Assembly (NCBI GenBank): GCA_964017235.1
Contig: OZ024929.1
Coordinates: forward strand, 24,859,464 to 24,923,463
Reading direction: 5' to 3'
DNA from: Sabellastarte sp. h YS-2021
Taxonomy: Eukaryota; Annelida; Polychaeta; Sabellida; Sabellidae
DNA length: 64,000 nt
The translations under genes and the position numbers were made by a program. Below are positions 1,014-62,555 of this stretch, piece after piece (the stretch's first letter is position 1; each line of letters begins with the position of its first letter). The notes beneath the pieces were generated by a model, which worked only from the letters and a program-made list of their open reading frames with translations, made no database searches and had not been told where the DNA came from.

Positions 1014-1033
1014 TTTTTATTGCGTAAAATAGC

Positions 1034-1212
1034 CTTACCTTATCCTCACAAATGCTTACTTGGTTTTGTGGAGGCAAAACGCGGCGACCAACAAGAATAT
1101 TTAAAAATTATTCTTGTTCGAGAGGTGAACCCCGTAGTTAGTGATAGGTGCGCATGCGCACAACACATTGTCGGTTGGACTTTGTCGAGAGATCCTCATT
1201 CAATTTTTGGTC
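1034..1212 (+). repeat. left inverted terminal repeat of A
   Basis: About 179 bp from CTTACCTTATCCTC to TTTTTGGTC. It is the reverse complement of 6203-6380 with very few differences. It contains the palindrome TGCGCATGCGCA. Confidence 0.9.
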
Positions 1213-2739
1213 GTCGAGGAGGCAACACGTGAATTCTTTTACATTCTGCCCATTTCTTAAACGGCAGATGCGTTCTTTCGGAATTCATAGAGTTCCAACC
1301 AAGAAGAAAGAAGTTTTAGACTTCCTATTCTACAGAAGTACTATTTTTCATGCTGAGGGTTGTGTAATCCCATGACAGCATTTTAAGATCCCCCTTGGCT
1401 GTAAAAACAGTCTTTGGTAGAGGATCTACTGCTGAAGATTCTTCGATTTTTTTTTTGGTTCAAGTTATCTACCTCTTCATGTATGAGGGATGTCCAACAG
1501 AAGTCTTTGAACTGGCCACATTTTCCTGAAATGACAGTATTAAGAGGTCTCATGCGACTGAAAAACTGTCAACACTAGAAGATCTACTGCAGGTTTCTTC
1601 TACAACACCATATGATGTTAAGATCTGATAGCTGGGCAGATTTAAATTCGTTTTCTGGGGTCAGTAATTAAACCTCCAGAATGCTGGTAGCTTCTCCACT
1701 TGTTGAAAACAAAGAAGATGACCATTCATCTCGATTCCAAAATATTTATCAGTGCTTCTAATGGGAAGCCCCTCATTGAAGTCCTGGTGAAGTTTATGAA
1801 GAAGTTCGGCAGTAAAACATTCATTATCTGAAGGATCTTCCCCTCTAAGAAACACAAATTGCTTTCATAGTGTGGAGTTCAATATTACTCTGCCATAACA
1901 GTATTTAGTAGTTTTTCTGTAGCCTAGAAAACAGTCAGTCCTAGAAGATCTACTACTACAGAGGTTTTATTAAGGTTTGTCATCACCTTATTAACCAGGC
2001 ATCAAGACAGTTACATTCCTCCATTGCCTTGTGTTAAATCTACAACTGGCTTGGGGACCATTTACTAGTTCTTCTATTCATAGTTCATTACAGAGAAGAT
2101 AACACACAAGTTTTCCCACCATTATCCTCAATGAAATGGGGATTCTGGTGTAGTAGAAGAAATACGTATAAATAGCTATGTTATATGAAAATATTATTGC
2201 CATCTCAGATTTGTGCAGTTTTTGAATGGGTGCTTTGTAGCCGTCCAATCAAAACTCCCCTTTCATGTGGCTCTACTGCAGGTGCTACAGACAGGAAACA
2301 ATCCACCATGCTGCTGAAAATATTGTGTTACATTTATTTTGTTATTTACACACAATTTCTTCTGTAAAAGACTACAAGTCGCAGGATTTTCTCAGTAAAA
2401 TAGTTTCCTCTATCATATCTGACACAATGCTGCTTGTTTTAGATGGAAACATTTGCTTTCTTCAAGACATAGATCGTTGGTGTGTTGTGTGCTGTATAAA
2501 TATAAAGGAATACCATATAAAGTACGGATAGCCTATACAAGAAGTTTAGTCTATTCAAGGAAGTTAATCAGCATTGAGCAAGGTTAGTGCGTGGATAGAT
2601 GGCCATTCCTGTCATTTTCTTTGCATCTTACAATATCATTGGCCAGTGAGGATCTCTTGCATACGTCTCAATGCTGTGAAATGGAATTTTATAAAGAAAC
2701 ACGGTCACAAAAGGTTAATGACCAGTTTCAACAGATCTC

Positions 2740-5580
2740 CGTACCAAATGCAAGGGTTGTGCAAATCTTGAGAAGGTTTATCGAATAATATTCCAGTCGA
2801 ATCCACCCATGTCTGTACATCCCATAATTTAAAGCGGTTACAGACAGGGAAAACATGGCTACCTAAGAGTGTCGAAAATGTTTCAAAAAGGCAGATTTTA
2901 GCATCTCTAGGATTGCACAACTCCAGATTTTACAGCAGATTATTTCTTGTATCAGAACCCGGCAATAAATAGCGCCCTGTGACAGATCTCAGTGTCCTGG
3001 ACAAATGCCTCTTAGTTCGAACTTTTAAGATGGAGACAGCAGAGATAACCAGAAACTCGGTCACTTAAGGTGAATGGCTAGTTTCGATAGACCTGAAAGA
3101 TGCGTTCTTTCACGTGCGCAGACACCCAGATTCATAACATTGGCTATGTTTCCATGTAGACAAACAAACGTATCACTTCAAAGCACTGCCATTGCGGTTG
3201 GCGACTGCACCCCTATAGTTCACGCGGATTGTAGAAGAAGCAAAGCTCATTCTTCAGTCTCGCGGAATTTGAGTTCACCAATACCTGGACGACTGGTTGT
3301 TAAGAGCAAATACCAGACACCAGTGTCAGCTCCAGACAAAAGAACTCGTCCATACGATTCAGGAACTCGCCTTTGTGATAATTTAGAAAAATCAGAGCTC
3401 GAAACTACATAAAAAAATCGACTTTCTGGGTTACCATTTCGAGTTGATACATGGAAAAGTCTTTCCAACCGAAAATAAGTTGAAAATTCTAGGAAAATCT
3501 GTTCAGGACATGGAGATCGCATCACAAACAACCCCAAGGTTGCTTATGTCCCTGATAAGTGTACTAGCATCCTAGAAAAGACAATACCAATGGGTCGGTT
3601 ACATATGCGCCCCTTTCCAGTGGTACCTAAAACAAACTGGTAGTATCCCCAGTCACTAGACCTGAAGATTCCTGTTTCAAACTTTCTGAAAAGTCATCTT
3701 CAGTGGTGGAAAGATCTAAAAAATCTAAAAAATGGGTTATCCTTTTCATCCACAAGAACACAATACCCTTATTTTCACAAATGCATCAAATCAAGGTTGG
3801 GGAGCTCATTTAGAAAACATGACAGTCAGTGGCAATTGGACAGATCAAGAAAATTGCTTCATATCAATGTCCTAGAGTTAAAGGCAGTTTTTCTGGCCTT
3901 AAAAGAGCTTTCAAAACAAACTTCTAGACAAAAGGGTTCTGATAGCAACAGACAGTGCTACTGTAGTCCGTTATCTGAGCAAACAAGAGGGAACACACTC
4001 TTGGGACAGGTGTCACCTGGTTTGGTGCATCTTGGCCTACTGCAATCCTCGAAACATACTCATAAGAGCCAGACACATTCAGGGTTGCCTCAATGTCATA
4101 GCCGACAGTCTCTCCAGGAAAGACAAAATAATTCAGACAGAATGGTCTCTTCATCCTCAAATATTCAGTCTAATTTGCAAAGTTTGGCACACACCAATGG
4201 TGGACATGTTTGCCACCAAATTGAATCACAAGCTACCAATCTATGTCTCACCAGTCCCAGATGCAAATGCTATGAACATAGATGCATTGAACATCTCCTG
4301 GGAGGGTCTGGACGGCTATGCCTTTTATCCTGTAGCTCTCATACCAAAGGTCATACAGAAAATGAACACCTACAGGTGCAGAATGATAGTAGTAGCACCA
4401 GGGTGGCCCAGAATGCATAGGTTTTGGGATCTAGTCAATCTGTCAACCAAGCCCCCATTACAACTGCCTCACTGGCCTCATCTGCTAAAACAACCTTTCA
4501 GTCAGAAGTTCCATCAGAATCTCATGTATCTGAATCTTCATGTTTGGCACCTGGACACCACTCAGAGTCACTTGCGTCATTCTCTGAGGAGGTGGCAGAT
4601 AGAATTAAGGCACCTCAAAGACCCTCATCTATAAGATTATATGAGTCAAGGTGGGCCATTTTTGAACTCTGGTGCCAACAGAATAAGGTGGTCAGTGCAG
4701 AGCCTTCTATCTCAGACATAGCAGAATTTTTTAACCATCTGTTTACCGTCAAAATTTATTAATTGCTGGCTACAGAACTGCAATTGCTGACCATTTGGGA
4801 CCTTTTGGTCTGGAAGTAGGCAAGAGCATGCACTTGAATAGACTTCTTGCAAGCTTTAATAGGGACAAACCTATTCTAAATAGGGGTATTCCCTCGTGGG
4901 ACCTATCTTTGGTTTTTATGGCTTTGACTAAGGCTCCTTTTGAATTTTTGAAGGATGCAAGTCTTAAGATTTTAACTTTCAAGACTGTTTTCTTGATGGC
5001 TTTGGCATCTGGCAAAAGGAGGGGGGAGGTGCACGCTTGGACATTCTCTTCCCTCAGGCATAAACCTCACTGGAAGGAGGGCACTATTTCTCCTTCTCCT
5101 GCCTTCTTAGCAAAGAATCAGTTGGCTTCTGATTGCCCAGATTCACTAAAACCAGTGGTCATTCCAGCTCTTAAACCTTTTTTGAGTTCAGACTTGACTG
5201 GGGATATGACTTTATACCCTGTCAGAGCACTTAGATACTATCTAGACAGAACTAGTGCTTTAAAGAAGGGAAAGTATCTCTTGTTTATGTCCTTTAAGGA
5301 AGGCTTTGACAGAGGTCTCATGGGATCTACTATCTCTTCTTGGATCAGACAGACTGTCTTATTGGATTATCAGTCATCCAATTTTGATACACAGGACCTA
5401 CAGGTTAAGGCCCATGATGTTAGGTCTATGTCTGCTTCTTTAGTATTCAAGGATGGGTGTCCCTAGAGCAGATTTTAGGCTCCTGCCATTGGAAGAGCCA
5501 CAACACGTTTTCTACCTTTTAAGCTATGTGTCTTGGCAGTCCACAGACCAAACAGATTACAATTAGGCCCAGTGGTTTTG
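2740..5580 (+). pseudogene. decayed RT-RNase H-MT-like and tyrosine recombinase of DIRS A
   Basis: Fragments in shifting frames match element D. There is an RT remnant around 2940-3600 (a KWRPVIDL-like stretch and a YLDD-like stretch now out of frame), the RNase H C-terminal end and methyltransferase-like block in one open piece (4032-4634, with VDMFAT and VVAPGWPRMH), and the recombinase in two pieces (to 4762 and 4795-5466). The recombinase keeps ASGKRRGEVHAW and KAHDVRSMS, supplying catalytic Arg and His-x-x-Arg. A frameshift at about 5455 removes the stretch with the nucleophilic Tyr. Not expressible as one protein. Confidence 0.85.
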
Positions 5581-6059
5581 CGCTGCTTTGGCTTTGAGTA
5601 TGTTCTTGAGTATTTCATATGGCTTACATACTTTACTCTTCCTTCCATACCAGTATCTTGTATGGACATATGTCTTCTACTGTGGCAGATGGCCTCATGA
5701 CTGTATTTTGTAAAATACAGAAGCCAGCTTGGGGTGCCTTCTTGCTGGATGACAGCTCCCAGCTCGAGGGACCCAGGAAGCCATCCCCGACCACACAGTT
5801 ATGGGTGATGGTTTAGATATAGGACAACTTTATGCTACATTGGACAAGTGTCAACTACAACAGTACATCATGAATATTCATGAGATTACCTATCATTACT
5901 TATCTTTACAGATATTTTACAGTAATGGAAAATTCTGTTGTAGCATACTTAAGCTTATCTTATCCTCTCCATCAAATGCTTTCATGGTGAACCCCATAAT
6001 CTATTAACAGGGAGGTTGCAAAACAAACCCCTCCTCCTGTTATGGTTGGAATCAAGCAT

Positions 6060-6157
6060 TTGTGAGGATAAGGTAAGGCTATTTTACGCAATAAAATGTA
6101 ACAAATTTTATTGTAATTTAACTTTTTGTAAGTTAAATACTTACCTTATCCTCACAA
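6060..6157 (+). repeat. internal complementary region of A
   Basis: The first ~35 bp are the reverse complement of the element's left terminus. The remaining ~62 bp are the reverse complement of its extreme right terminus. The region therefore equals the right-end/left-end junction of a circularised element, read in reverse. This is the hallmark of DIRS elements, in which the region templates completion of the ends. Confidence 0.88.
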
Positions 6158-6202
6158 GGACAGACCCACCCTTCCTCCCCTCACAAGTTTGTTTTCATAG
6201 GG

Positions 6203-6380
6203 GACCAAAAATTAAATGAGGATCTCTCGACAAAGTCCAACCGACAATGTGTTGTGCGCATGCGCACCTATCACTAACTACGGGGTTCACCTCTCGAACA
6301 AGAATAATTTTTAAATATTCTTGTTGGTCGCCGCGTTTTGCCTCCACAAAACCAAGTAAGCATTTGTGAGGATAAGGTAA
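6203..6380 (-). repeat. right inverted terminal repeat of A
   Basis: Reverse complement of 1034-1212. It ends with GGATAAGGTAAGTATTT, so the sense strand shows a consensus 5' splice site (AAG|GTAAGT) near the element end. Confidence 0.9.
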
Positions 6381-6426
6381 GTATTTAACTTACAAAAAGT
6401 TAAATTACAATAAAATTTGTTACAAT

Positions 6427-7186: not shown

Positions 7187-7354
7187 GAACAGATATTGAG
7201 AGAACTTAAAGCCAGTTGGAAGGAGAGCTTAACCAAAGCTTTTGAAACAAATCTTCGCTTAGGAGAACGCATTTACCATCAACGGGGTTTCATGAGTGTG
7301 ATGCCCTATATGAGGCTGTTACCAGTGGAGAAATACGTGGACATAATGATTGAG
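7187..7354 (+). CDS. POLRMT: POLRMT exon, 56 codons
   Basis: The exon lies between TTACAG and GAG|GTAATA and is phase 0 at both ends. It encodes EQILRELKASWKESL...RIYHQRGFMSVMPYMRLLPVEKY. The pattern W..AL....L.RE.Y......YP.L.LL corresponds to the segment just before the polymerase domain in animal POLRMT. In the enzyme this N-terminal extension supports promoter contact and transcription factor binding in the mitochondrial matrix. Confidence 0.85.
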
Positions 7355-7609
7355 GTAATAACAGAATAACCCTCTCTCATCCAAACATACTTGGATCATG
7401 AAAACGAGTTCAGATAATAAAAACAACAGACATTTCAGATGATTAGATAGGGAACAACTAATTAAGGGGAGTATAAAGGAGTTCAATAATGGAAGATTTT
7501 TTTCGGATAGTTTCCAAAAAGACAGACCCAAGGGTCGGAGGTAGAATACCTTATTGTCTATTAATTAAGGTATTAACTAATGAAATTTAACTTCATTCAT
7601 AAATTTGCA
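7355..7609 (+). other. POLRMT intron start
   Basis: Unremarkable AT-rich intron sequence before the repeat module at 7610. Confidence 0.5.
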
Positions 7610-8084
7610 ATTTTATTGGTTTATGCAGAAAAATGAGAACAAAGTTACCATGGTACAGTGCTTGTCAAGCAATGTTACATTGGTATTGTTCATATTTGTA
7701 TCCACCGAATAGCATCCAGTGGATAATATGTATTTCGCTTTGTTACGCCACCGCGGCCACCGCAGTGTGTAGAGAGATTTCACCGTTGCCGCTCTAACGA
7801 AAAAAATATTATAGCTAGCCTTCTCAAATTCGCAGGATATATTCATAACCATAAAATCTTGCCTGTGAATATTTTTGGCCTCATTTTGAAAAACAAGATG
7901 GCCACCACGGGCATTTTTTTCGACTTTCAGTAAGGACTTTTGGTGGCCCTCTAGAGCAAAGGGTGTTATAGGTAGAGATCTCAAATTCGCACGGTATGTT
8001 CCTCATTACAAAATCTTGACTGGGAATATTTTTGGCCTCATTTTGAAGAACAAGATGGCTGCCACAGGTGTTTCTTTGTCAGTC
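7610..8084 (+). repeat. head module of array-bearing repeat (copy 1)
   Basis: The diagnostic stretch runs from the CACCGCAGTGTGTAGAGAGA block to TTTTTGGCCTCATTTTGAA and AACAAGATGGC. It recurs in diverged form at about 12300-12520, 16255-16430 and 49400-49600, each time directly followed by ~146-bp tandem units. Head plus array therefore look like one dispersed non-autonomous element of unknown class. Part of the head is itself duplicated here: the tattttTGGCCTCATTTTGAA block occurs near 7870 and again near 8030. Confidence 0.7.
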
Positions 8085-9085
8085 ATAAAAGTGCTTATAT
8101 CTCCCTTATTATTGGTCCTAGAGTTTTGGGATGGTAAACCAACCTATAGGAAATCATGGGCTGGGAATCTTTTGGTCTGGTCATATTTGACCTTGGACCG
8201 CTCCTTCAAGGTCAAACGAGGATAGCCAAACTTAAAAGTGCTTATAACTCGCTTATTATTGGTCGTACAGGTTTGGGATGGTAAACCAACCTACAGGAAA
8301 TCATGGGCTGGGAATCTTTTGATGTGGTCTGATTTGACCTTGGACCTCTCCTTCAAGGTCAAACAAGGATAGCCAGTCTAAAAAGTGCTTATAACTCGCT
8401 TATTTTTGGTCCCACAGGTTTGGGATGGTAAACCAACCTATAGGAAATCATGGGCTGGGAATCTTTTGGTGTGATCAGATTTGACCTTGGACCCCTCCTT
8501 CAAGGTTAAGCCAGGATAGCCAAACATAAAAGTGCTTATAACTCTCTTTTTATTGCTCCTAGAGGTTTGGTATGGTATACCTAGAGGAAATCATGGGCTG
8601 GGAATGTTTTAGTTTTGTCGGATTTGACCTTGGGCGCCAAAGGGTCCAAGCCTAAAAGTGCTTATACCTTGCTTATTATTGGTCCTAGTGGTTTGCAAAG
8701 TGAAACCAACCTATAGGAAATCATGGGCTAGGAATCTTTTGATGTGCTCAGATTTGACCTTGGACCCCTCCTTCAAGGTCAAAACAGGATACCCAAACTT
8801 AGAAGTGCTTATAGCTCATTTATTATTTGTCATACAGGTTTGTAATGTGAAACCAACCTATAGGAAATCATGGGCTAGGAATTTTTTGATGAGGCCAGAT
8901 TTGACCTTGGGCCCCTCCTTCAAGGTCAAACGACAATAGCCAAACTTGAAGGTGCTGATAACTTGCTTATTATTGGTCCTAGAGGTTTGCAATATGAAAC
9001 CAACTAATAGGAGGTCATGGGCTGGGAATCTTCTGATGTTTTCAGACTTGACCTTTGGCCTCTCCTTCAAGGTCAAACGATGGTT
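8085..9085 (+). repeat. tandem array, about 146-bp unit, ~7 copies
   Basis: The marker GTGCTTAT recurs at 8091, 8239, 8385, 8532, 8659, 8815 and 8952, so spacing is 127-156 bp and mostly 146-148. Each unit carries GGTTTGGGATGGTAAACC-like sequence, ATAGGAAATCATGGGCTGGG, and an everted pair TTTGACCTTGG...CTTCAAGGTCAAA. The open frames in this stretch are by-products of the repeat. Confidence 0.92.
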
Positions 9086-9772
9086 CACTGGCTTTGGTGA
9101 GTTGTCTTTTCGGTGGATACAAATTTGCATCGATTCTCCGATGCGTAGGTCTACTTCACTATTGATTGGTAAAAAAATTATCACTATTGATTGGGAAAAA
9201 ACTCTATTGATTGGTAAAGATTCTACTTTCAGTATAAGTATTAAATGCCTTAAGTTCAAAGCTGTAGCCAGTAAATCAGCCACTAATATTTTCAAAATAT
9301 CAATGCATTTCATGACTACATAACTTTAAAGATTCAGTTTGAATGATGGGAAACTGCTGATAGTTTTTTTTTCTTTTTTTTTCTAAAAAAATAAATAGAA
9401 AATAATAAGTACAGAATAACTTTTGGGTTTAATCAATCAGTTGTCAAGGGATGCATTTTATGGTTTCAAAGTATTCATAATATCATCTTTGTTGTTGTAT
9501 TGCAGTGTAGTTCAAACATTCAAACATAGTTATGATTGACATCACACAACTGAAAAGTGACAGTATATGAACCTTTGTTTCTTTAAAAACAAATTTTATA
9601 TTTTTGGTATTATTCCTGTGTATCAAACTCCAAAACATATTCAAACCCAGAAAGCTACCCGGATGTCACCTTTGGCTTACATTAGGTCAAGTGACTACTG
9701 ATATTTACCAGAGGTGGTCAAAAAGGTTTCACTGGAAGGGATTGGTCTGTATATTTGTATGGAACATTTCAG
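9086..9772 (+). other. POLRMT intron, right part
   Basis: Intron sequence with T- and A-rich runs at 9360-9400 and no recognisable element. It ends at the acceptor ATTTCAG before 9773. Confidence 0.5.
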
Positions 9773-11416: not shown

Positions 11417-11520
11417 GTAGGTTTTTCCAGACACCATTTAAAAAAATTTATTTCCTATACCTTGCATCAGCTACTTATTTCAGTAAACTAATTTTTTATC
11501 CTTTTTCGTGTTCTTTACAG

Positions 11521-11656
11521 CCTCATAGAAGTTTGACAAACCTGTTAAAATCTGCCGAAGTCAGCAACTTGTCCTTTGTGCCCCAGATGATGCCCTTTCT
11601 GGCTCCCCCAATTCCTTGGTGCAAAAGAAACTTTGGTGCTGACATCAAGGGACTGA
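11521..11656 (+). CDS. POLRMT: POLRMT exon, 45 codons
   Basis: The exon lies between TTTACAG and GGACTGA|GTATGT, starts in phase 0 and ends with one base of a split codon. It encodes PHRSLTNLLKSAE...FVPQMMPFLAPPIPW...FGADIKGL. The P.L.PP.PW block followed by Gly-Ala is typical of the entry to the polymerase domain in mitochondrial RNA polymerases. Confidence 0.92.
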
Positions 11657-11934: not shown

Positions 11935-12660
11935 TATTTAGTTGTATCCCCGGACTTAAGTCAGGGATACTTAGGATTCAGTATGGTCATGCAGCCGCAG
12001 AGATTTCCTTTTGGACGAGATAGCTTAAAAAATATTATAGTTAGACATTTCAAATTTGGTATGTGGGTATATATGGGCAATGTCACGAACGCTATTGTTT
12101 TGTGACCTTGACCTTCAATTTCAGGGTCACTGGTGGCCTCTTAAAGGTCAGATTTTGGCCATTTCTCACATTTTGGCCCAGTTCTCATATACAGAAAGTT
12201 AGATCATCCAATGGGTGGTATATATAATACATATATATGTCCTCTGTATGCATGCAGAAATTTGACCTTGAAGCTCTTCATTGAAGGTCATGTGGTGGAT
12301 ACTTTGGTTTAGCGTTTGCTACGCCGCCGCTGCCGCCGCGCATAGAGAGATTTTCGGCGTTAACGCTCTCAGAGGAAAACTACACCAGCTAGGTTCACCA
12401 AATTTGCAGGATATCTTCATTGGGAAGTAAGCTTCTGTGGGACTGAAATTAGCCTCATTCTCAAAAACAAGATGGCAAAAGCAGGCATTTCTTTGAAAAT
12501 TATCTACATTTTTCTACTGGCTGTTTTTCATAGGTAGAAGGTTTAATCTTTTCATAGGTGATATGTATAACAGATATACATGTCCTCTACAACTTTGCAG
12601 ACATTTGACCTTGAAGCTCTTAATTCAAAGTCATCCACGGAGTGCCAAAGTAACCCACAT
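11935..12660 (+). repeat. hairpin and head module (copy 2) of array-bearing repeat
   Basis: Begins near an imperfect hairpin (GTATCCCCGGACTTAAG... GGGATAC). It then contains a diverged head module (GCGCATAGAGAGATTT..., CCTCATTCTCAAAAACAAGATGGC) that leads into the tandem units at 12660. Function unknown. Confidence 0.6.
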
Positions 12661-13136
12661 AGCGGGCTTTAAAAGTGCCTATATCTCCCTTATTATTGGT
12701 CCTAGAGGTTTGCAATGTGAAACCAACCTATAGGAAATCATTTGCTGCGAATCTTCTATGTGGTCAGATTTGACCTTGGACCCCTCCTTCAAGGTCAAAT
12801 GAGGATAGCCAAACTTAAAAGTGCTTATAACTCGCTTATTATTGGTCCTAGAAGCTTGGGATGGTAAATCAACACATAGGAAATCATGGGCTGGGAATCT
12901 TCTGGTGTGGTTGGATTTGACCTGGGGCCCCTCCTTCAAGGTCTAACAAATATATCCAAACTTAAAAGTGCTTATAACTCGCTTATTTTTGGCCCTAGAA
13001 GTTTAGGATGGTAAACCAACCTATAGGAAATCATGGTCTGGGAATCTTTTGGTGTGGTCGGATTCGACCTTGGCCCCTCCTTCAAGGTCAAACAAGGATA
13101 GCCAAACTTAAAAGTGCTCATAACTCATTTATTATT
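12661..13136 (+). repeat. tandem array, about 146-bp unit, ~3 copies
   Basis: Same family as 8085-9085. The marker GTGC(C/T)TAT is at 12675, 12821 and 12969, with a GTGCTCAT variant at 13114 (spacing 145-148). Everted CAAGGTCA pairs are present in each unit. Confidence 0.9.
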
Positions 13137-19316: not shown

Positions 19317-19332
19317 TTTATTGCGCTACAAT

Positions 19333-49022: not shown

Positions 49023-49162
49023 CGTTGATAGCCCCTTAAGACAAATCTGAAATTTCACAGAATTTCTGGGGGAAACTAGTTCGGGAAAATGAATATGGTC
49101 AGAGTACTGCCTGTAGAGCATTAAACATTCTGAACGTGACCAGCCCTCTCCTTTTTTCACAG

Positions 49163-49285
49163 GGCAGACAGTGGTGGACCAATTCAGAAGATCCCTGGCA
49201 GACACTGGCTGCTTGCATGGAAATAGTCAAGGCAACTAGGTCACCTGACCCAGAGAAGTACATCTGCCATCTGCCCATACACCAG
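49163..49285 (+). CDS. POLRMT: POLRMT exon, 41 codons
   Basis: The exon lies between TTTTTTCACAG and CACCAG|GTGAGT and is phase 0. It encodes GRQWWTNSEDPWQTLAACME, then YICHLPIHQ. The WW...E.PWQ.LA.C.E and LP.HQ blocks directly precede motif A of the polymerase palm in POLRMT. Confidence 0.97.
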
Positions 49286-50468: not shown

Positions 50469-50591
50469 GATGGTTCATGTAATGGACTGCAACACTACGC
50501 TGCTTTGGGCAGGGATACAATGGGAGCCAAGTCTGTGAACCTTGTCCCACAGGAAATGCCAAAAGATGTGTACTCAGATGTAGTGGCTCTG
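50469..50591 (+). CDS. POLRMT: POLRMT exon with catalytic motif A, 41 codons
   Basis: The exon lies between GTATTTAACAG and GCTCTG|GTAAGA and is phase 0. It encodes [20 protein letters not shown], then [16 protein letters not shown]. The first Asp of [12 protein letters not shown] is the motif A metal-binding Asp of T7-type RNA polymerases. The G......VNL....P.DVY block is also conserved. Confidence 0.98.
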
Positions 50592-51009
50592 GTAAGATAA
50601 TGAAACAGTTTTAAAATATGTGTAAAATTTGATTGGTTTCTTAACTAATTATATATATATATATATACCATTTGTACCAATTTCTTCAGGTTATTATATC
50701 GTGCACAATATGTAACTTTCATTATATGTAAAATACATAGACAAGTTCAATTCATATAAAGTTTTAAACAAATTTTCCATTTGTAATAGTCTTGTGTATA
50801 AACCTCTCAGTAATGCAATGCAGAACTGTCAATTTGAAAATCGTTAAGAACTAGTACAAAGTTTGAGTTGTGCACAATTTGTATATGTCACTCACCTGAA
50901 AATTGACATTTTTCGAACTGGTTCCATTAGAATGTAAATGTGACATACGCTAATACTACTTGTACTTTGCTGTGTCATATATTTCATTGTGAATTCTTAT
51001 GTTAAATAG
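50592..51009 (+). other. POLRMT intron (418 bp)
   Basis: Contains a short (AT)n run near 50650-50670. Otherwise plain. Confidence 0.7.
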
Positions 51010-51087: not shown

Positions 51088-52842
51088 GTATCAAACTGGC
51101 ATTTTATAGTGTGTTTTCTGCTCTCCTCCAGATACTTTGGAATTAAAATAAGAGTAACTTTGAGCCATTTGGGCAAAAATTGCAGATACTGTATTGTCCA
51201 CATTTTATTATGAGAGAATGTACATGTAGGCACATGTTTTGCTGCTAATTAAGCATTCCTGAAAAGGATGCTTATTTGTTGGGCGGGTTGTGTGTAACCA
51301 ACCCACCTATTACAGGGATTTGTTCAGTGTCCATCTGTCCGACTTGCTCACACTTCCAGCGATTGATTTGAAACTTAACAGGGTGTTATTGCACCACCTA
51401 GGCTAGGTTGCTTTAGAAGTTGGTACATTTTGGAAAAAACAAGATGGCCGACATGGCAGTCATCTCGAAATTCCATTTCCGGACTTTGATTTGAAGACGC
51501 TTCAATCTTTACGGAGTGGCCTTGTTCCCATCTCCTCTTTTTGGGACAAAGAAGGGTCCGGTAATGCCCACCATTTATTCTCCCACTTCCTACCTTCCAG
51601 TCGGCCATTTTAGGGGTCAGTTTGTTTCTTTACAGGACAACGAAAGAAAGACCAGAACCGTGCACATACTCAGTGTAACTTTTTACCTTAATAATAGGTG
51701 GGTTGCATGTATCAAACCCGACTATTAGATTGATGTGCTGTCTGTCCATCCATCCATCAACATTTTGGTTTCCAGACTCTAACTCAAAGATGCTTTGTCC
51801 AATCTATATGAAACTTTACAGGGTGATTGGACACCATAAGGACTTGGTTGCGTTCAAAATAAATTGGGGTCCCACTGTTGCCTGTTTTGGGCGTACGCTA
51901 TCAGAAATATTTCGGTTTCCAGACTCTGACTCAAAAACACTTTGTCCGATCTACTTGAAACTTAACAGGGTGATTGGACACCCAGGGCTTGGTGGCTTTT
52001 GAATTTGGGGTCAGTTTGTGTGCCCATTTTTGTGTGCACTCATCCGAAATATTTTGGTTTCCAGACTCTAACTCAAAGACACTTTGTCCAGTCAATTTGA
52101 AACTTTATAGGTTGATTGGACACCACCAGAGCTAAAATGCTTTTGAAATTGGTGTTTGTCCATTTGCCCATTTGGGCCTGTGCTCATCTGTAATATTTGG
52201 GTTTCTGGACTCTAACTTGAAGACGCTTTGTTCGATCATTTTGAAACTTAACAGGGTTATAAGACAGTAAGGACACCACCGGGGCTAGGTTGCTTTTGAA
52301 ATTGATGTCCATCCATTTGCCTGTTTTGGGTGTGCACGCATCCATCCATATTATCCTTTCGGACTCTTAACTTATAGACCCTTCCACCAATCGATTTGAA
52401 ACCATGGTTGTAGGAGACCTTCTGGGCTAGGTTGTTTTCGAAATTGGTGTCCGTCTGATCGTGAACACATCTATCTGTATGGTACAGTATGTATCTGTAA
52501 ACATTTTTGTTTCCGGACTCTAACTCAACGCTTCCACCGATTTTAAACTTTACAGAGATGAAGGACAGCACATAGCACTATTTTGAAATGTCCAGATCAG
52601 CTATCATGTTGCACACATCTGGCACCTTATCCCTTATACCAATTGCGCAACCTGTCTCTTGTCATTGAACATTGGTCACTGAATGGACAAATCTTGGCAT
52701 TAGTCAAGCATTTTATAAACATTTGTTCTAGAGCCAAATCTAGTGACCAATGCAAGTATCTGAGACAAAGAGTGACTGTATAATAAAAGTAAAACTGCAG
52801 TGCTCGAAGTGTTGAATTTTTTTTGCTTTGGCCATTGTAAAG
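51088..52842 (+). repeat. POLRMT intron with hairpin-headed array, about 147-bp unit
   Basis: A hairpin (AAGCATTCCTGAAAAGGATG then CTTATTTGTT) at about 51247 opens the repeat. Units marked by TTTCC(A/G)GACTCTAACTC recur at about 51769, 51915, 52058, 52201, 52354 and 52509, with an initial partial unit at 51477; spacing is 143-155. The array ends near 52580. The remaining 260 bp are plain intron. Confidence 0.85.
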
Positions 52843-53031
52843 GTAATCAAGCAGACTGTCATGACAACGGTGTATGGGGTAACCCGTTATGGTGCGACAC
52901 AGCAAATCTTGAAGAAGTTGAAAGACATGGATATTGATGTTGATATGGACAAAAGGTCTGCTGCTGCTTACCTCAGCAAAAAGACGTTTGAAAGTCTGCA
53001 GGAAATGTTCCAATCCAGCAAGCAGATACAG
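52843..53031 (+). CDS. POLRMT: POLRMT exon with motif B, 63 codons
   Basis: The exon lies between CCATTGTAAAG and ATACAG|GTGCGT and is phase 0. It encodes VIKQTVMTTVYGVTRYGATQ, then a linker and FESLQEMFQSSKQIQ. K.TVMT.VYG.TR.G is the O-helix (motif B) of T7-type RNA polymerases, containing the nucleotide-binding Lys and the Tyr that selects ribonucleotides. Confidence 0.98.
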
Positions 53032-53437
53032 GTGCGTTTCTGTCTCATTGCAACAACATCAGAGCAGGGTTTTTTGTATGTTACAGTGAATATGTGTAAT
53101 CAGGGAATACGTGTATACTGTAAAGCGCTCAGGGTATGTGCGTATTCATTAAATTTTGAGGGGACATGCGTATTCCCAGGTTTTGATGAGCAGGGAATAC
53201 ACATATTCCCTAACTAGAAATATTGAGAAAGCAACTTTGTATTTTAAAATTTATAAAAAAAACTGAAATTTTCAGGGAATACACGTATTCCCTGATTACA
53301 CATATTGACTGTAACATATACATCAATATATCAACAGGAATCAGATTTCTGGATTTCTATATCATAATTGAAAATATTTCATGAAATTGAAATGTGTCAT
53401 CAATTCAATTTATTTTTAACTGTTTTATTAAATTTTA
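53032..53437 (+). other. POLRMT intron, left of element F
   Basis: Contains the palindromic MITE at 53079-53316. Otherwise AT-rich. Confidence 0.7.
53077..53318. mobile_element. palindromic MITE with TA duplication
   Basis: The body is 53079-53316 (238 bp). The left end TGTTACAGTGAATATGTG and the right end read in reverse (TGTTACAGTCAATATGTG) continue as matching arms for ~38 bp, including AATCAGGGAATACGTGTAT. TA flanks both sides, as expected for a Tc1/mariner-type non-autonomous element. An internal GGGAATACACATATTCCC palindrome adds to the fold-back. Confidence 0.75.
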
Positions 53438-53457
53438 TTTTTATTGCGTAAAATAGC

Positions 53458-53637
53458 CTTACCTTATCCTCACAAGTGCTTGTTTGGTTTTGTGGAGCAA
53501 AACGTATCGACCGACAAGAATTTTTTAAGAAATATTCTTGTCACAAGAGGTGACCCCTTTGTCTGCGCATGTCCGCGCTTGCGCAGTAGTCGTTGTCGAC
53601 AGACGATTGTCGAGAGATCTTCATTATATTTTTGGTC
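53458..53637 (+). repeat. left inverted terminal repeat of F
   Basis: 180 bp. F-private variants (GCGCTTGCGCAGTAGTCG, GACAGACGATTGTCG) are mirrored exactly in 62331-62510. Confidence 0.92.
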
Positions 53638-54369
53638 GATATGGGAGCAACACGTACTTTTCCTTATTATCGTCCATTCACGGATGAAAATCTATGAAGT
53701 TTTGAAGCGTGCAAGCGTGCACCTACCTGTAGTTGTCCATTATTCGACTGGTACTACCACTATTCTGCCTCCCTTGTCCTGAAAAGGGTCAGAATAAGAT
53801 GTGCAAGAAGATGTTGCTGTAAAGTCTTCAGTGGAAGACATGTATATCTTCGGCTGTACTCACCCATTATTCGACTGGAACTACCTCCGTGTCGATGAAA
53901 GATATGCAGAGAAGAGCTCCCGTAGTTTTCAGTGGAAAACTGCTTTATTGTCCCTTAATTGATGGCAGAACATGAGTATTAGCGTATGCTCGAAAACAAA
54001 GAAGAAAGAATGCAGTTGTCTTTGCAATGGAGGTCGTAGATTCTTTACTGTGGGTGGAGCGCCACTCTGGTACAGTAACAGGTCTCCCTCCAAAAGAACG
54101 ACTACAGAAGCATATCCACTGATCCTTGCAGTTATTATTTTGCTTCCCAGCAGGTACAGTGAACTTCCTGCTTCTCAGACATGAAAATAAGGACAGGTTA
54201 CCTTCATTTGCTGTAGATTTAGATGAAGATCCAACAGACATCTTTGGGGCAGTATGTGCACTGCTTGTCTTTTCAGCCCTGTTGAAGAATTGAACCTTCC
54301 TATGACCATGTCTCCAATGGAAGGAATACTGTGACTTTTGAGTTAATTCTTCTGCAAACTCAACGAAGA

Positions 54370-55870
54370 TCAATCAATGCCTAAGAACTGGAACTGGCTG
54401 AGATATGGTGTTGAAGTCCTTGCTTCCAACCTTCACGAGTGTATTTTGCATGGTTTATACAGGACTGCGGCTATGTCCAGTAATTTTTCATTGCCATCCC
54501 AGAGTTGTGCGAATCTTGAGACGGAGTTGGCGAATTACTCCCCAATCGAATTCACCAATGCCTGTACTACCCACAATGCAAAGCGATGACGTCAGACAGG
54601 AAAACATGGCTACAGTACTAAATATACCGCTTAAATGCTTCAAAAGAAAGTGATTCATCCACTCAACAATTGCAGAACTACAGGTTCCTATGGCAGTTTA
54701 TTTCTTGTATAGAAACTCGACTAATGACGACCTCTGATACATCTCAGTGTCCTGAATTGATCTAGCTATGTCTTCAACGGTCACGGCCCACGAGTGAAGT
54801 TCGTTTACTATAACAATAAATACCTGCTTGTCGCATCATTTAAACTGGAGACAGCAGAAATTATTAGAAATTCGGTTACAAAAGATGCGTTCTTCTATGT
54901 ACCGACTCACCAAGATTTTCAACATCTACTTCAGTTTAATGTACACTGGCAAACCTATCAGTTCAAAGCAATATGAAATTCGGGTTAGCGACCCCTCTCA
55001 AGTATCATGCGAGTAGTAAAGAAGCAAAACTCTTTCTTCAGTCTCATGGAATAGGAGTTCACCATATACCTAAACCACTGGTTGTTTAGTGTACGTAAAA
55101 GACACCAGTATTGGGTTCAAACCAAAGAACTCATCCAATTTTTCTTCAACTGGGCTTCGTGATATCGATTTCCTAGGTTACCACTGCATTTTGGTATCAG
55201 GAAATTTCTTTCACCATATACCTAGACTACTGGTTGTTTAGTGTACGTAAAAGACACCAGTATTGGGTTCAAACCAAAGAACTCATCCAATTATTCATCA
55301 ACTGGGCTTCGTGATATCGATTTCCTCGGTTACCACTGCATTTGGTACCAGGAAATTTCTTTCTACCTCGAATAAATTAAATACCTGAGAATCTATTCAA
55401 GACATGGCGATCTCATCACAATCAACCCCAAGGTTGCTTATATCCCAGGTAGGGATACTGGCATCTTTGGAAAAGACTATACCAATGGGTCAGTTATGTA
55501 GGTGTGCCTTTCACTGGTATCTACTACAACTGGCAATATCTCCAGTCACTAGTTGTGAGAATTCCTGTTTCAAATCCTTCTGAAAAAGCATATTCAGTGG
55601 TGGAAATGCCCAAAACTTGGAAATAGGATGCCCTTTCTATACACGGGGGCACAATTCCCTTATTTTCGTAGATGCATTAAACTAGGGTTGATGATCCCAT
55701 CTAAAAGCAGAACAGTCAGTGGCTTTTGGACAGTTAAAATGTATATATTACATTTCAAGGTCATACAGATGAAGGCAGTGTGTTCAGCCCTTAAAAGCCT
55801 TCAAGACAAATTCCACACAAAAGAATTCTTATAGCATCAGACAACACCACTGTGTTCGGTTATCTGAACA

Positions 55871-55908
<38 letters not shown>

Positions 55909-56958
55909 GCGTATACCTCCTAGTTTGGCGCAGCTTGGCCTACTGCAATCCTTGAAATATACTCATAACAGACATATTCTTGGTTGCTTAAAGGTCATAC
56001 TCAACATATCTCCAGAAGGGATAAAGGTTTGGCGCATCCTGGCCTACTACAATCCTTGAAATATACTCTTAAGAGACAGAAATATTCTGGGGTTACTTAA
56101 ATGTCATACTCAATGATCCCTACAGAAGGGACAAAAGTAATATGTACAGAATGGTTCTTACTCCCTTTATGGTTCTAGACAACGGGCAAGTTTGGCACAT
56201 ATCAACAATAGGTGTTTTATGCAGGTATGCTGCATCTTGGCCTACTGCAATCCTTGAAATATTCTCATATGAGCCAGATATATTCAGGGTTGCCTAGATG
56301 TCATGACAGCCTCTCCTCAAAGAACGAAATAATACAGACAGGAGAGTCTTCGTCTTTAATATTCTATTTGATTTACATAGTTTGTCAAATACCAATGGTA
56401 GAGATGTTTGCCACCAATGTGAGTCACTAACTTCCATTCTATGTTGCCAGTCCCGGATGCAAATGCTCTGAACATAGATGAATTAAACATCTTGTTGGAG
56501 GTTCTGGACTGCTAGGCCTTTTGTCCTATACCACTTATTCCAAAAAGTCATTGAACAAGTGAACACCAGGTGCAAAATGATTGTAGTGGCCCCTTGGTGG
56601 CCCATGATGCATTGGCTTTGGGGTCTGGTGAGTCATTCAACCAAACCTCCATTACAGCTACTTCACGGGTCTCAAAAACAGACATTCAGTCAGAAATACC
56701 ATCTAAATCTGTTGCATTGGCACCTTCATGCTTGGCACCTTAACACCACTCAGAATCTCTTATATCATTCTCTGGGCAAGGGATAGAGAGATTTAGGGCA
56801 TCTCAAGGACCCTCATCTTGGAATGTATGAGTCATGATGGGCCATTTTGAGCTCTGGTACCCACAGAATAAGGTGGCCATCTCAGAGCCTACGGTCTCAA
56901 ATATACCAGATTTTTTTATCCATTTACTTGCAAAAATCTGAAACCTGTCACTATTGTT
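54370..56958 (+). pseudogene. remnant pol of DIRS F, part before the LINE
   Basis: Same decayed sequence as E 43830-46430: RT remnants at 54790-54980, the duplicated block at about 55060-55370, the thrice-repeated TTGGCCTACTGCAATCCTTG block (about 55930, 56040, 56240), and an MT-like remnant at 56560-56690. A poly-G run of 43 occupies 55875-55917, at the position of the RNase H Asn-Lys-Gln-Gly codons. Confidence 0.82.
55875..55917 (+). repeat. poly-G tract (43 G)
   Basis: Uninterrupted G homopolymer. The corresponding site in E has 9 G and in D has 5 G within RNase H codons. Confidence 0.85.
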
Positions 56959-57119
56959 CTATTCTAATTCTAAATTCTAATTGGACTTTTATAGCGCTTA
57001 ATCTCCCCAAACAAGAGGACTCTAAGGCGCAACAAAACAAAAAGCAGTCAACAAAATTCTGTGTCCAGGGACATAACAGGGGTCGAACACCACGGAGAAC
57101 GCCAGGAGGATGATTCAGG

Positions 57120-58616
57120 CTAGGGTGGATATGCTTTGGTGTACAGGTAGGTTTTAAGCTGTTTTCTGAAGAAGGCCAGGGATGGAGAGGCACGAATCAC
57201 ATCAGGGAGAGTATTCCACACAGTAGGAGCATCAAACGCAAAACTATTACCAAACTGTTTGACAGATTTATGAACAGAGGGGCAGAACTTTGGAATAACT
57301 AGGAAATTACCACCACTTTCACTGCGCCTGGTACTATAAGAACTGCTATAGGAAGAAAGATGTGGTGAAAAATACCTGGGAAAACCTGTGTGAAGATACT
57401 TATAAACAAGTGTGACTGTCTTGAACACAATGCGCTGTTCAACAGGAAGCCAATGCAGTTTCTTTAGCACAGGAGTTATGCTGGTGTATCGACTGGTGTT
57501 TGATACAATTCTAGCTGCACTATTTTGGATGCACTGTAATTTGCGTAGATTGAACTTGGACAGGCTCCTGAAAAGTGAGTTGCAGTAATCCAACCGACTA
57601 CTAACAAGAGCGTTGGCTACAAGCACAGAAACATCATGAGTAAGAAACCGCCTGACATGTCTGAAGTCACGGAGTTTAACAAAACAACTTTTGCAGACAT
57701 TCTGAACATGCTTGGACAAAGAGAAATCTGAATCAAGCCACACACCCAGATTTTTTACTGAATCTGCAGGGCAGAGTGAGTTGCCCAGGATATCAATTGG
57801 AAAACATGCTTTCAACTTATCCCTTTGTCTCTTCGAACCAAAGATGATAAACTCAGTCTTATCAGGATTCAGTTTGAGCTTACTAGTTGTCATCCACTCT
57901 TTAACATCATTTAGGCACTTATTTAGCTTTTCAAAGGCAGCAGATGCATTCTTCTGGGATAAATGTATATAAAGTTGGCTATCATCTGCATAGAAATGAA
58001 ACTTTATTCCATTATGTTTACTGATAATGGAACTGAGGGGGGTAGTGTACAATGAGAACAACAAAGGACCCAGGACAGAACCTTGGGGAACACCAAATAG
58101 GAGTTTACAAACATCTGACAAAGTAGAACCAATTTTTACTGATTGGTAACGGTCCATTAGGTAGGATGTGAACCATTTCAGAACGGAGCCACTGACCCCA
58201 AACCAGTTTTGGAGGCAGCCTAGAAGAGTAGAGTGATCAATGGTGTCGAAGGCAGCAGACAAGTCAAGCAATACCAAGGCCGGGGATTCACCTCTTGACA
58301 ATGATAAGTGAACCTCATTTTTTATGTAGAGAAGAGCAGTCTCAGTTGAATGGCCCGCCTTATATGCCGACTGGTACGGGTTGTCTAAGTTATTGGCATT
58401 AATATGTTCTAACAGCTGCTTAGCAACCACACGTTCTACCAATTTAGATATAAAACTGAGACCTGATACAGGGCGATAATTCTTAAGGTCATTTGAGGGA
58501 AGATTTGGCTTTTTAATAAGTGGAGTGACCACAGCAGATTTGAAGGCATCAGGAACGCATCCCTCCATGAGTGAGCAGTTGACCAGCTTTGTAAGGGATG
58601 GTAGCAATATATCAAT
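57120..58616 (-). pseudogene. LINE reverse transcriptase half of ORF2
   Basis: Follows the TGA at 58617-58619 in the same frame. RT motifs are intact: PLIKKPNLPSNDLKNYRPVS, LDLSAAFDTIDHSTLLGCL, GVPQGSVLGPLLFSLY, the catalytic FYADDSQLY, TSKLKLNPDKTEFIIFG, KNLGVWLDSDFSL, and the C-terminal LHWLPVEQRIVFK plus FDAPTVWNTLPD region typical of the CR1/L2/Crack group. About 498 codons. It cannot be translated with the endonuclease half unless the stop is read through. Confidence 0.93.
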
Positions 58617-60200
58617 TCATTCCTTAATCTGGAATGTCGGCAGAGGGTCCAACAGGCATGATTTTGTTGGTGATGCTTTAATTATTTTATCAACAGCATC
58701 TTCAGAAACTTGCCTAAAGACAGTAATTTGGGGAGGATCTGAAGGAGGGTTAACATCATATTCAGTGCCAGAAGAAGCAAAATTATCTCTAATCTTCTTG
58801 ATTTTGTTGGTGAAGAAGGAGGCAAACTGGTCAGCCAATGACTTTTCGGACTCATGAGATGGAAGTGTGGCATCAGAAACCCTGTTCAGGGTCTTATGCA
58901 GCTCACGCCAAAGTTTTCGAGAGTCATGACTATTGTCTGAGATCAGTTTGCTATAGTAGTCTGATTTATCTTTATTTACAAGTGCATTGCACCGAGCAAT
59001 CTGGCGACGAAGCCTACTCCTGTTAAGTGTACTTTTAGCCCTACGCCAGGTTCTCTCAAATTGGCGCCTAAGGGACTTTGCACGTCGATAATCATCAGAC
59101 ATCCAATCGGCGGACTCCTTTTTCGTCAATTTAGATATAAGAGGTGCATGCCTATCCAGAACATCACTCAAATCATGTACATATTGATCATACAGATCGA
59201 CAACAGCATCAGCTGGAGACTTGACGAAGGACGTATTTTTGAGATCTGAGCGGAAGTCAGACATATTGATACGGTGGAACCTTCTATATTGAACTACATT
59301 TGGAGTATGAGACACTTGACAAGGGAAGGCAACTGAACATTTGACTAATGCGTGATCGGAAACAAAGTCACAAATTTTAACATCAGCAATGGTGTCCTGA
59401 TCACAGGGAGATAAAATCAGGTCCAATATGTGACCATGTAGATGAGTAGGTTTATTGACTAACTGTTTGAGGTCACATGAATCAAGAAAGGTAGTGAATT
59501 TCTGACCGTCACCAACTGGAACATCAACATGAATGTTGAAGTCGCCACAAATGTAATATGAAGAATTAATGGATGAAAGGTAACCAACAAATGACATGAA
59601 TTCTTCCAGAAAATTACAGGTACATGATCCTGGAGGGCGATAGATGCAGGCAAGCAACACTGAATGGCCATGAAGCCCGATTGACACCACTATATTTTCA
59701 AATGACTGATAACAAGGAGTTTCAATTATATGGGGTCTGTAGGAGGATCTGATGAAAAAACCCACACCACCACCAATACCTGAGGGACGAGGCTTGTGAG
59801 GAAAGTTAAAATCGGGAGGAGTTATAGACCGTAAGAAGCTGTCGGAGTCAAATGGACGTATGTGAGTTTCCGTGAGGCATAGAAGATCAAGGTCGTATGA
59901 AGCCACCATGTCGGCAAGGAGAGGACCCTTGTTCCTTACGGATCTGGCATTCAAAACACCGAGTGTAAATGGACCAGGGTTGAGGGATACATCTCCACCC
60001 AGTAACAGTAACAACATGAGCCCTCTTCCATTAACCATGGTCGGAAATTTTCGGCAGGAACACAAATATGATAAATTTTTCGCAACCCGTGTCAAAGGAG
60101 GACATGATGTGTAAGATGCTCTGATGCTGAACCAATCATGTCTGTGGGCCAGTGCCACTGCAAACAGTGCCATGAAGAGGAGTAACCGAGGGCTGAACAT
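58617..60200 (-). pseudogene. LINE endonuclease half of ORF2, with 2A-like leader
   Basis: ATG at 60200, then a hydrophobic signal-like start (MFSPRLLLFMALFAVALAHR) and a second hydrophobic stretch leading into DVSLNPGP at residues 70-77. The endonuclease follows (LNARSVRNKGPLL, LCLTETH, GGGVGFFIR, IYRPPG, ICGDFNIH, VSDHALVKC). It ends at an in-frame TGA (58617-58619) four codons before the RT half; the two halves are otherwise one continuous frame of about 1026 codons. Confidence 0.92.
59970..59993 (-). other. 2A-like ribosome-skipping motif in LINE ORF2
   Basis: Encodes DVSLNPGP preceded by a Leu-rich stretch (LMLLLLLGG). The 2A consensus is D-V/I-E-x-N-P-G-P; here Ser replaces Glu. The skip would separate a ~76-residue leader from the endonuclease-RT protein. 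Confidence 0.7.
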
Positions 60201-60725
60201 GACTGGTGGGGTTGTACATCAGTAAGAGCCCCTAGTCTAAGCTCAACAGTGGGGAGCCTCAATAATATAACCCTACACCTAAAAGTCACAACTCTTCGTC
60301 CTGTGGGCGACTCACAGGCACCCTAACACCCCACACTACAGCCTCACCTTAAGCTAAAAGACAACACCACCAGACACCAACAGGAAAATGTCTATATACT
60401 GATTGGAAATAAACTTAAAGTGAACTTACAAGACACAAATTAGATTATAAATAATACCCAGTACTTGAAATAGGGGAATTATAGATCAAATTACTACGGT
60501 AATTCCCGGCAAATGGGCGATAATACCCGCTTTTATATAGAAGTTGATACAGCAGTGAATTGGAGGAATATATACATAAAACAGGCAAAGAATAAGAAAG
60601 TAAGATGAAATTAATATATAAGATAGTGAATCCGTCTAAAAATGTGCTACATGTACATAAAAACGACCATTATTATACAGAGAATTCCAAAAAGCGTCTC
60701 CGCGGTGCGTACTAAAACGATTGTT

Positions 60726-61910
60726 GGCTTTGCAGCAGCCATAGCTGATCATTTACATTTTTGTGCAGGAGTTGAGCCAAAGCCTGCATCTTTATAGGCC
60801 TATTGCAAGTGTTATAGAGAGAAGCCCACTGCTAACAGAGGTGCAGCATCAAGGGATTTGCCTTTGCTTCTGTTGCTTTTCACAAAAGGCTCCATATTAA
60901 CCTTTAAAAGGAGGTCAGTCTAAAAAAGTTTGACTTGCAAGACTGTTGCAATGCCATTGGAAGTGTATTCTGGGACTTTGGCTCCTTCAGACACAAGCCT
61001 CATAGGAAGGAGTTTACAGTTCTCCCTCCTACCTACCTTTTCAGCAAGGACCTATTAGCCTCAGTTGGTCTAGATTGCCTCCAGTGGTCACTTCAGCTCT
61101 AGATCATTCCTGAACTCAAATTGCCTGGACACATGATTCGTTGTCATCTTACAGCACTTAGATCCTTCTTGGACAGGACTACTGCTTGGAGAAAAGGGAA
61201 AGTCTCCTTCTCCTGCCTTTTAGCAAGAATCAGTTGGCTTCTGATGGCCCAGATAGCTCAAACCAGTGGTCATTCCACCTCACAAACCTTTCTTGAGCTG
61301 ATGTTGGACTGATGTTGTGACACTCTGCTCTCTTACAGTACTTAGTTACTATCAGGACAGTACAAGTACTTCAAGGAGGGGAAGAATCTTGCTCATATCT
61401 TTTAAGGAAGGCTTGATGGAGATATCTTGAGTTCTGCTATCTCTTCCTGGATCAATCTGGCTGCATGATTAGATTGCCAGTCCTTTAACTTTGATTCTCA
61501 GAATCTATACTTTGAGACACATATTAGATCCATGGCTGCCCTTTTTACTTTCCAAGAGTGGGGTCTTACCTGAGCAGAGATCAAACTCTTGTTATTGGAA
61601 GACCCACAATTCTTTACTACATTCTACTCGAAGATGTAGCTTGGCAATCCCATGACCAGTCCATGAACAAATTGGGCCTTGTGGATTCACCTCAGCATGT
61701 AGTCAATTTTTGTGTATTTATACATGTTATTGATACGACTCACATATTTATGTTCTCTCCAGTTATACAAGTCTTGTGTCACTGACATATGTCTTTCTTG
61801 GCTTACATATGGCCCCATATCTGCAGTTTATGCAGTTCAGTTTGCCTGCCTGGAGATATTCTCATTGTCAGATGATGACATCTTGTTTCGGGAGTCATGC
61901 AGACATCTCC
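60726..61910 (+). pseudogene. remnant recombinase of DIRS F, part after the LINE
   Basis: Continues the E-like sequence interrupted at 56958. Recognisable are the TIVGFAAAIADH-like restart, LRSFLDRTTAWRKGK, and the tail LLEDVAWQSHDQSMNKLGLV. Frames change repeatedly and no catalytic set survives. Confidence 0.8.
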
Positions 61911-62189
61911 GGCCAATACCGGGTGATGGTTAATACTGGTATATGATTTGTTGTAAAATTGCCTACAACAGCAACAGCAGCAACAATGACGACCACATCA
62001 TGGATCTCTTGTTGAGGGTAGCAAATTACTTATCTGTCTTGCAGAAGTAATATATAACTTAAGATGTGGTGTATGGAAGCTTATCTTATCCTCATATCAG
62101 TGCTTTATTTGGTGACCCCTTGTCTGACAATCATCTAACAGTGTGGCCAAAACAAATACCCTCCACCTGTTATGGTTGTATTCAAGCAC

Positions 62190-62287
62190 TTGTGAGGATA
62201 AGGTAAGGCTATTTTACGCAATAAAATGTAACAAATTTTATTGTAATTTAACTTTTTACAAGTTAAATACTTACCTTATCCTCACAA
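62190..62287 (+). repeat. internal complementary region of F
   Basis: Left-terminus complement joined to right-terminus complement. The sense strand has AAGGTAAGGC followed by AATAAA. Confidence 0.88.
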
Positions 62288-62330
62288 GGATAAACCCACC
62301 CTACCTCCCCGCATAATTTGTTTTGCTGGG

Positions 62331-62510
62331 GACCAAAAATACAATGAAGATCTCTCGACAATCGTCTGTCGACAACGACTACTGCGCAAGCGCGGACATG
62401 CGCAGACAAAGGGGTCACCTCTTGTGACAAGAATATTTCTTAAAAAATTCTTGTCGGTCGATACGTTTTGCTCCACAAAACCAAACAAGCACTTGTGGGG
62501 ATAAGGTAAG
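62331..62510 (-). repeat. right inverted terminal repeat of F
   Basis: Reverse complement of 53458-53637 including F-private variants. One late change is visible (TTGTGGGGATAAGG in place of TTGTGAGGATAAGG). Confidence 0.92.
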
Positions 62511-62555
62511 TATTTAACCTGTAAAAAGTTAAATTACAATAAAATTTGTTACAAT

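Follow-up and report, generated by a model that had tools for sequence, protein, structure and literature searches.

Previous studies describe DIRS1-like retrotransposons by their inverted terminal repeats (ITRs), internal complementary regions (ICRs), reverse transcriptase/RNase H (RT/RH) and tyrosine recombinase (YR) frames, and NTT termini, and the available part of that survey tabulates molluscan examples with ATT (PMC3266345). Of these features, ITRs, RT/RH and, in five cases, ICRs recur, together with putative YR frames and apparent NTT junctions, in the six elements, named A to F, that we analysed in a 64-kb window of DNA (C3:24859464-24923463 of a 1.786-Gb assembly of 647 contigs, eukaryotic judging by its genes), where they lie in introns of one POLRMT gene. 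Additional here are an excess of copies in the sense of host genes and an agreement in strand across types; in the main text of the survey the word "intron" occurs 0 times, and strand relative to genes is unmentioned in its available part. Intronic L1, in the available part of its report (PMC2176070), has a strand bias relative to the host gene, as here, but the bias described below runs in the opposite direction, is stronger in our sample, and occurs in two DIRS types. Ngaro in Cafeteria (PMC8547959) is a tyrosine-recombinase retroelement with a non-random choice of target, as here, and "orientation" occurs 0 times in the main text of that report. No report of a gene-strand bias of DIRS elements was found among open-access titles and the beginnings of abstracts, subscription papers being outside that search.

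In the genome sample examined here, copies of two DIRS types share their strand with nearby copies of their own and of the other type, and wherever a host gene could be named they lie mostly in its sense. L1 and similar intronic retroelements are as a rule more frequent in antisense, and our data suggest an intronic sense habit of DIRS elements that is surprising beside these best-known elements. A mostly-sense order of this kind, in two types and with neighbours in agreement, would point to tyrosine-recombinase integration oriented by transcription; if true, the copies would form a natural record of the direction of germ-line transcription.

A to F are DIRS1-like retrotransposons of ordinary build. 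Bounded by their paired ends, they total 40,452 bp, in accord with the roughly 40 kb of the 64-kb window estimated in an earlier note on this DNA, and the RT and YR frames of all six read on the plus strand. Element A (1015-6424) carries RT/RH and YR with a mere scrap of gag matched, and its RT and YR are 73% identical to those of D; its ITR pair is 97.9% identical over 189 bp and its ICR lies at 6077-6097 and on. Its ends are of the type found also in D (34524-41479; ITR pair 97.9%; ICR at 41132-41152 and on; RVT_1 at 1e-24), in E (42875-48257; ITR pair 97.9%; ICR at 47911-47931 and on; recognised by RT/YR similarity), and in F (53439-62553; ITR pair 97.4%; ICR at 62207-62227 and on), which is split by a long interspersed element (LINE). 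The second type comprises B (19316-26516; ITR pair 87% over 149 bp; RVT_1 at 1.4e-18), the ends of which are the most diverged among the six, and C (26995-33381), in which gag, RT/RH, and YR are open (ITR pair 97.6%; ICR at 33052-33073 and on; RVT_1 at 1e-19; RT_RNaseH at 6.4e-6). Across A to F the ITRs are 87-98% identical, and the values of 97.4-97.9% in five of the six suggest recent insertion, B at 87% being older. The ICR is formed by the reverse complements of the left and right ends, placed side by side near the 3' end; its halves abut in A, D, E, and F and come to within one base in C, and a short-word look at B, which stood outside the main ICR comparison, found none, so that the ICR was found in five of the six. 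RVT_1 was identified by Pfam in B, C, and D, and RT_RNaseH in D (6.6e-5) scored below the curated cut-off. The three YR frames tried (A, C, and D) gave no Pfam match; R, HxxR, and Y, which we take to be the tyrosine recombinase signature, could be picked out by eye in the open YR frame. A resembles D at 86% over 3.7 kb, B resembles C at 77-88%, and F matches E at 93.6-97.3% identity in four long matches, so that the six insertions represent at least three lineages. Mis-assembly looks unlikely because these different lineages have different flanks. The YR of D is near-identical in many other genome copies, and D also contains an additional segment of roughly 1.2 kb (36261-37605), flanked by a 109-bp repeat in which AATGTAATAG is abundant.

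The window carries most of one POLRMT gene on the plus strand. The domain of the mitochondrial single-subunit RNA polymerase (PF00940) was traced in five exons, in order and all on the plus strand, three within the window and two just past its end; a PF14700 search gave no match anywhere, and one frame matched POLRMT chains only, at E of about 1. The remaining exons were located with a human probe (tblastn) and by reading translations, those separating B from C and preceding A by eye; several are weak singly (E 0.007 to 0.9) yet correctly ordered. The intron of A runs from about 100-200 to 7196, and the stretch 7196-7375 contains the next exon (human residues about 434-492; E 0.007, the match crossing a stop near its end). 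This exon is followed by exons at 11515-11640 (human residues 621-662) and 18930-19033 (human residues from about 712; E 2.0 at 18927-18989, placed by order and splice sites). B lies between 19033 and 26588 and is divided from C by the exon at 26588-26708 (translation and splice sites); C lies between 26708 and 33715 and is divided from D by the exon at 33715-33911 (tblastn 8.3e-27; PF00940 9.8e-4; splice sites). D lies between 33911 and 41511, with the exon at 41511-41589 (tblastn 0.10 at 41524-41583; translation) dividing it from E, the intron of which extends from about 41589 to 49139. Between E and F are exons at 49139-49285 (PF00940 4.5e-13) and 50466-50600 (PF00940 2.2e-19 over 50442-50600; tblastn from 50466). 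To the left of F stands the exon at 52840-53052 (PF00940 2.3e-16), and the intron of F, from about 53031 to 63296, ends at the exon at 63296-63400 (tblastn 6e-4 over 63296-63427; end estimated). All of these exons are on the plus strand, and at least one stands between every neighbouring pair of elements, so that A to F occupy six separate introns; the paired ends, plus-strand frames, and ordered plus-strand exons together confirm the earlier claim of six sense insertions in six different POLRMT introns. The C and D proteins (E 1e-3) detected no other DIRS within the span of POLRMT, and a degenerate DIRS on the plus strand at 90.5-92.7 kb lies past the last POLRMT exon found. The right ends of D and B lie 31 bp and about 71 bp, respectively, upstream of an exon; those of copies L015, L023, L033, and L055 lie about 15-58 bp ahead of exon acceptor sites, a possible liking for intron ends. 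Six of six in the stated direction has a chance of 1/64, as the earlier note calculated, which alone is weak, so that the real support comes from the genome sample.

Strand agreement between neighbours was assessed independently of any exon call. A pattern for the A/D/E/F right end, written so as to leave out the ICR, matched 653 forward and 658 reverse sites in the assembly (1311), of which the first 100 listed, all at C1:1.7-125.6 Mb, were used; the B/C pattern matched 1281 and 1317 copies by strand (2598), of which 100 were listed, all at C1:1.6-55.9 Mb. Among these listed copies, A/D/E/F neighbours less than 100 kb apart share their strand in 22 of 23 cases, a value reached by 0 of 100,000 shuffles, and a single strand prevails throughout 15 of the 16 clusters; agreement is 7/13 at 100-250 kb and 17/37 beyond 1 Mb. 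B/C neighbours within 100 kb agree in 22 of 27 cases (93 of 100,000 shuffles). Cross-type pairs, with one copy of each type, agree within 100 kb in 19 of 19 cases, from 11 A/D/E/F copies (54 of 100,000 shuffles), and in 11 of 15 at 100-250 kb. The copies are also clustered, with 23 close gaps observed against 7.6 expected for A/D/E/F and 27 against 16.5 for B/C, as would follow if local copying or segmental duplication spread same-strand copies nearby. We find this explanation scarcely credible: it is largely refuted by the cross-type agreement, A to F themselves belong to several lineages, and none of the 20 flanks of clustered copies matches another flank in its own cluster, so that the strand agreement is not due to duplication. 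As a control, the CR1-like LINE from F was found at 822 places with at most three mismatches. Among the 100 places listed, each of them an exact match located on C1 or C2, and with a five-copy 4.5-kb array counted once, there was no clustering (3 close gaps against 2.4 expected), and the same strand was shared in 0/3 pairs below 100 kb and 5/6 at 100-250 kb, too few to decide; LINE-DIRS pairs below 100 kb agreed in 0/3, a very small sample.

Gene names rest on homology matches, without annotation. Twenty dynein heavy-chain spans of known strand cover 2.57 Mb, and the DIRS copies inside these genes are sense in five of five cases, in three genes: C1:23298889, C1:115835322, and C1:115852171 by the A/D/E/F pattern, C1:23282763 by the B/C pattern (the dynein-like exon beside it being recognised by eye only), and C19:63337906 from an independent list of 116 D-like recombinase copies. 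The C1 dynein spans hold 3 A/D/E/F copies against 0.25 expected, and all 20 spans hold 1 copy of the D-like list against 0.17. Of the 116 copies in that list, 90 were examined, 87 of them by their right flanks (84 of these anchored, including the D of the window) and 20 by their left stretches; right flanks of 20 clustered C1 copies and of 20 B/C copies were added. Right ends were missing in 2/30, 1/20, and 3/40 copies of successive batches (the last 3 kept unanchored), and the left end was present in 1 of the 20 left stretches, four 2.5-kb stretches being compared with D only. Beside the D-like and clustered A/D/E/F copies, the exons recognised by homology with an E-value of at most 1e-3 are sense in all six genes, namely AASS (Sacchrp_dh_C, 1.6e-22), IRE1 (RNase domain, Ribonuc_2-5A, 8.9e-16), DHX16 (4.6e-32), RABGAP1 (1.6e-6), and, below the Pfam curated cut-offs, a CP2/grainyhead-like gene (CP2, 2.5e-5) and USO1 (Uso1, 1.9e-5).

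Pfam searches of 126 candidates from a mechanical ranking, 67 of them sense and 59 antisense, joined into ten strings, gave matches in sense only and none in antisense, the further sense matches being a RecR zinc finger (0.009, belonging to the gag of a nested DIRS), HELP (0.012), DUF613 (0.15), and INO80F (0.3); the ranking of exons by composition and splice scores was without result or weak. Ten sense frames mostly picked by eye yielded, besides IRE1 and USO1, RabGAP-TBC (0.027) and Cadherin (0.047), with six of the ten without a match, one of these being DHX16 by another search. Ten more sense frames gave Tad3 (0.068) and NMN_transporter (0.027), with eight unmatched, and ten antisense frames gave ZFYVE21_C (0.026), with nine unmatched. 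Ten frames beside B/C copies and one other gave CUB in antisense (6.7e-11), LDLa in sense (0.036), and some chance-level matches. The nearest listed C1 copy to a kinesin exon is 303 kb off, one C1 copy lies 18 kb downstream of myosin head exons on the same strand, and no listed C1 copy is within 50 kb of ion-channel exons; two copies of the D-like list, 33 and 39 kb from same-strand ion-channel exons, were left uncounted. With the nearest dynein, CUB, myosin, or ion-channel exon within 50 kb on C1, A/D/E/F copies are 5 same and 0 opposite, and B/C copies are 2 same and 3 opposite, all three at one CUB locus. Counted by gene, ten are sense (POLRMT, three dyneins, AASS, IRE1, USO1, grainyhead-like, DHX16, and RABGAP1) against one antisense. 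The sense habit is not peculiar to POLRMT, and the suggestion that this locus itself is special finds no support, since local agreement (22/23) and sense placement recur at further C1 sites and in further genes. The sample also departs from the absence of strand bias across the genome that the earlier note had named as contrary evidence, but the CUB locus holds antisense copies. By eye, copies L025, L027, and L167 are inserted beside or in the gag or RT of other DIRS, in the same orientation.

The explanation that we favour, at just short of an even chance, is that DIRS insertion is oriented by transcription of the host region, perhaps with selection. It would account for the agreement across types, for the surplus of sense copies, and for their enrichment in dynein spans, and an orientation fixed through transcription, as proposed earlier, fits the sample best; its mechanism is hypothetical, and the one opposed locus adds to our reserve. 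A double-stranded circle would be joined by its own tyrosine recombinase to a 3-bp NTT core, preferentially where NTT is on the non-template strand of a germ-line-transcribed gene, possibly because the passing polymerase leaves this strand exposed in its wake or because the integration complex travels attached to the polymerase. In that case POLRMT might be a germ-line-open gene that was hit six times. More tentatively, and with greater doubt than belief, element strand may read out gene direction genome-wide, with joining at NTT plus TGT on the non-template strand of germ-line genes and with opposing loci, such as CUB, marking germ-line transcription of the other strand.

The 84 anchored A/D/E/F right junctions show A63 G15 T6 at position 1, followed by T83, T76, T55/G23, G46, and T62. 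This type appears to join at NTT, then TGT, with T at position 2 in 83/84 and at position 3 in 76/84 of these right junctions; the B/C flanks, by eye, show NTT, often then TGT. Such an asymmetric junction could orient insertions with no coupling to transcription if introns were T-rich in sense. However, RTTKGT occurs 64 times in sense and 49 times in antisense in the POLRMT introns outside A to F (19,907 bp), about 1.3 to 1 in this one gene and far from 22/23. Composition alone thus fails to explain the bias in POLRMT; as sole cause it is largely refuted by this ratio, and we rate it as very improbable.

The element ends bear on selection, in which orientation would be free at insertion and antisense intronic copies would harm transcripts and vanish, sense copies being benign; the earlier note had offered purging and benign sense copies as two of its readings. 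Both ends were observed directly: in the sense right end, AATAAA is preceded by AAG|GTAAGTAT, an almost perfect U1 site, and the antisense read-out has a weaker one, AAG|GTAAGGCT. The U1-like site is a possible reason for the tolerance of sense copies, and a strand bias of intronic L1, about 2-fold antisense, is known from the available part of its report (PMC2176070). Nevertheless, the donor-like site precedes AATAAA at both outward ends, an asymmetry of degree only. In D (41400-41479 and 34524-34600), each outward strand has an AAG|GTAAG site 17-32 bases ahead of its AATAAA, the one in sense fitting U1 better, and the C ends have ATG|GTAAGC. Acceptor-like sites in the first 150 bp of the right flanks number 33 sense against 12 antisense at the lowest threshold, a small difference that is partly composition. 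Most copies of the D-like list are 97-100% identical in recombinase and hence young, and the near-complete bias in young A/D/E/F copies would need immediate, strong purging. Purging would explain the sense excess, but alone it predicts a deficit in genes, the opposite of the enrichment in dynein spans and of the clustering. We consider selection unlikely as the explanation, though it retains real weight.

Several observations weigh against transcription-oriented integration. At the CUB locus, five PF00431 exons lie on the minus strand (C1:38.377-38.544 Mb), whereas the plus strand carries two B/C copies within the locus and a third 7 kb beyond it, all three opposing the gene. B/C agreement is weaker than that of A/D/E/F and yet extends to 17/19 at 100-250 kb, beyond typical gene length; at 250 kb-1 Mb on C1, agreement falls below half in A/D/E/F (8/26), B/C (13/34), and cross-type pairs (27/86). 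In the D-like list, from other contigs, close pairs agree in just 2/3. The pattern positions are limited to C1 (C1 and C2 for the LINE), and several sense exons were first chosen by eye. The CUB locus sits in a run of eight plus-strand copies over 0.8 Mb, which, with the B/C agreement out to 250 kb and the below-half values farther out, would suit chance in POLRMT combined with a strand preference that belongs to the region and not to its genes, such as replication direction. With ten named genes sense against one antisense locus, we think this improbable.

The LINE inside F (57120-60218, minus strand, antisense to the gene) has open reading frames for endonuclease and RT (Exo_endo_phos 1.9e-7; RVT_1 8.2e-36); the name CR1-like is our presumption, and DVSLNPGP, early in the endonuclease frame, is presumably a 2A-like motif. 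The array noted above consists of five LINE copies 4.5 kb apart, head to tail, at C2:149449017-149467063. Between the last two POLRMT exons found, at about 71741-78337 relative to the window, is an intact 1615-aa Ty3-like frame on the minus strand, antisense, with a repeated frame on either side; by eye its integrase precedes the RT, and we take it to be Gmr1-like. In the POLRMT neighbourhood this element and the LINE in F are both antisense. Minisatellite arrays with units of 147 and 155 bp occupy POLRMT introns at 8066-9100, 12650-13136, 14729-16250, and 16415-17009, and a similar unit was seen by eye beside DIRS copies L026 and L045. At C6:34639414-35483904, dynein exons suggest a single gene across 844 kb, and at C14:20123497-20142816 about eight or nine myosin-head exons recur every 2.35 kb, possibly as alternative exons.

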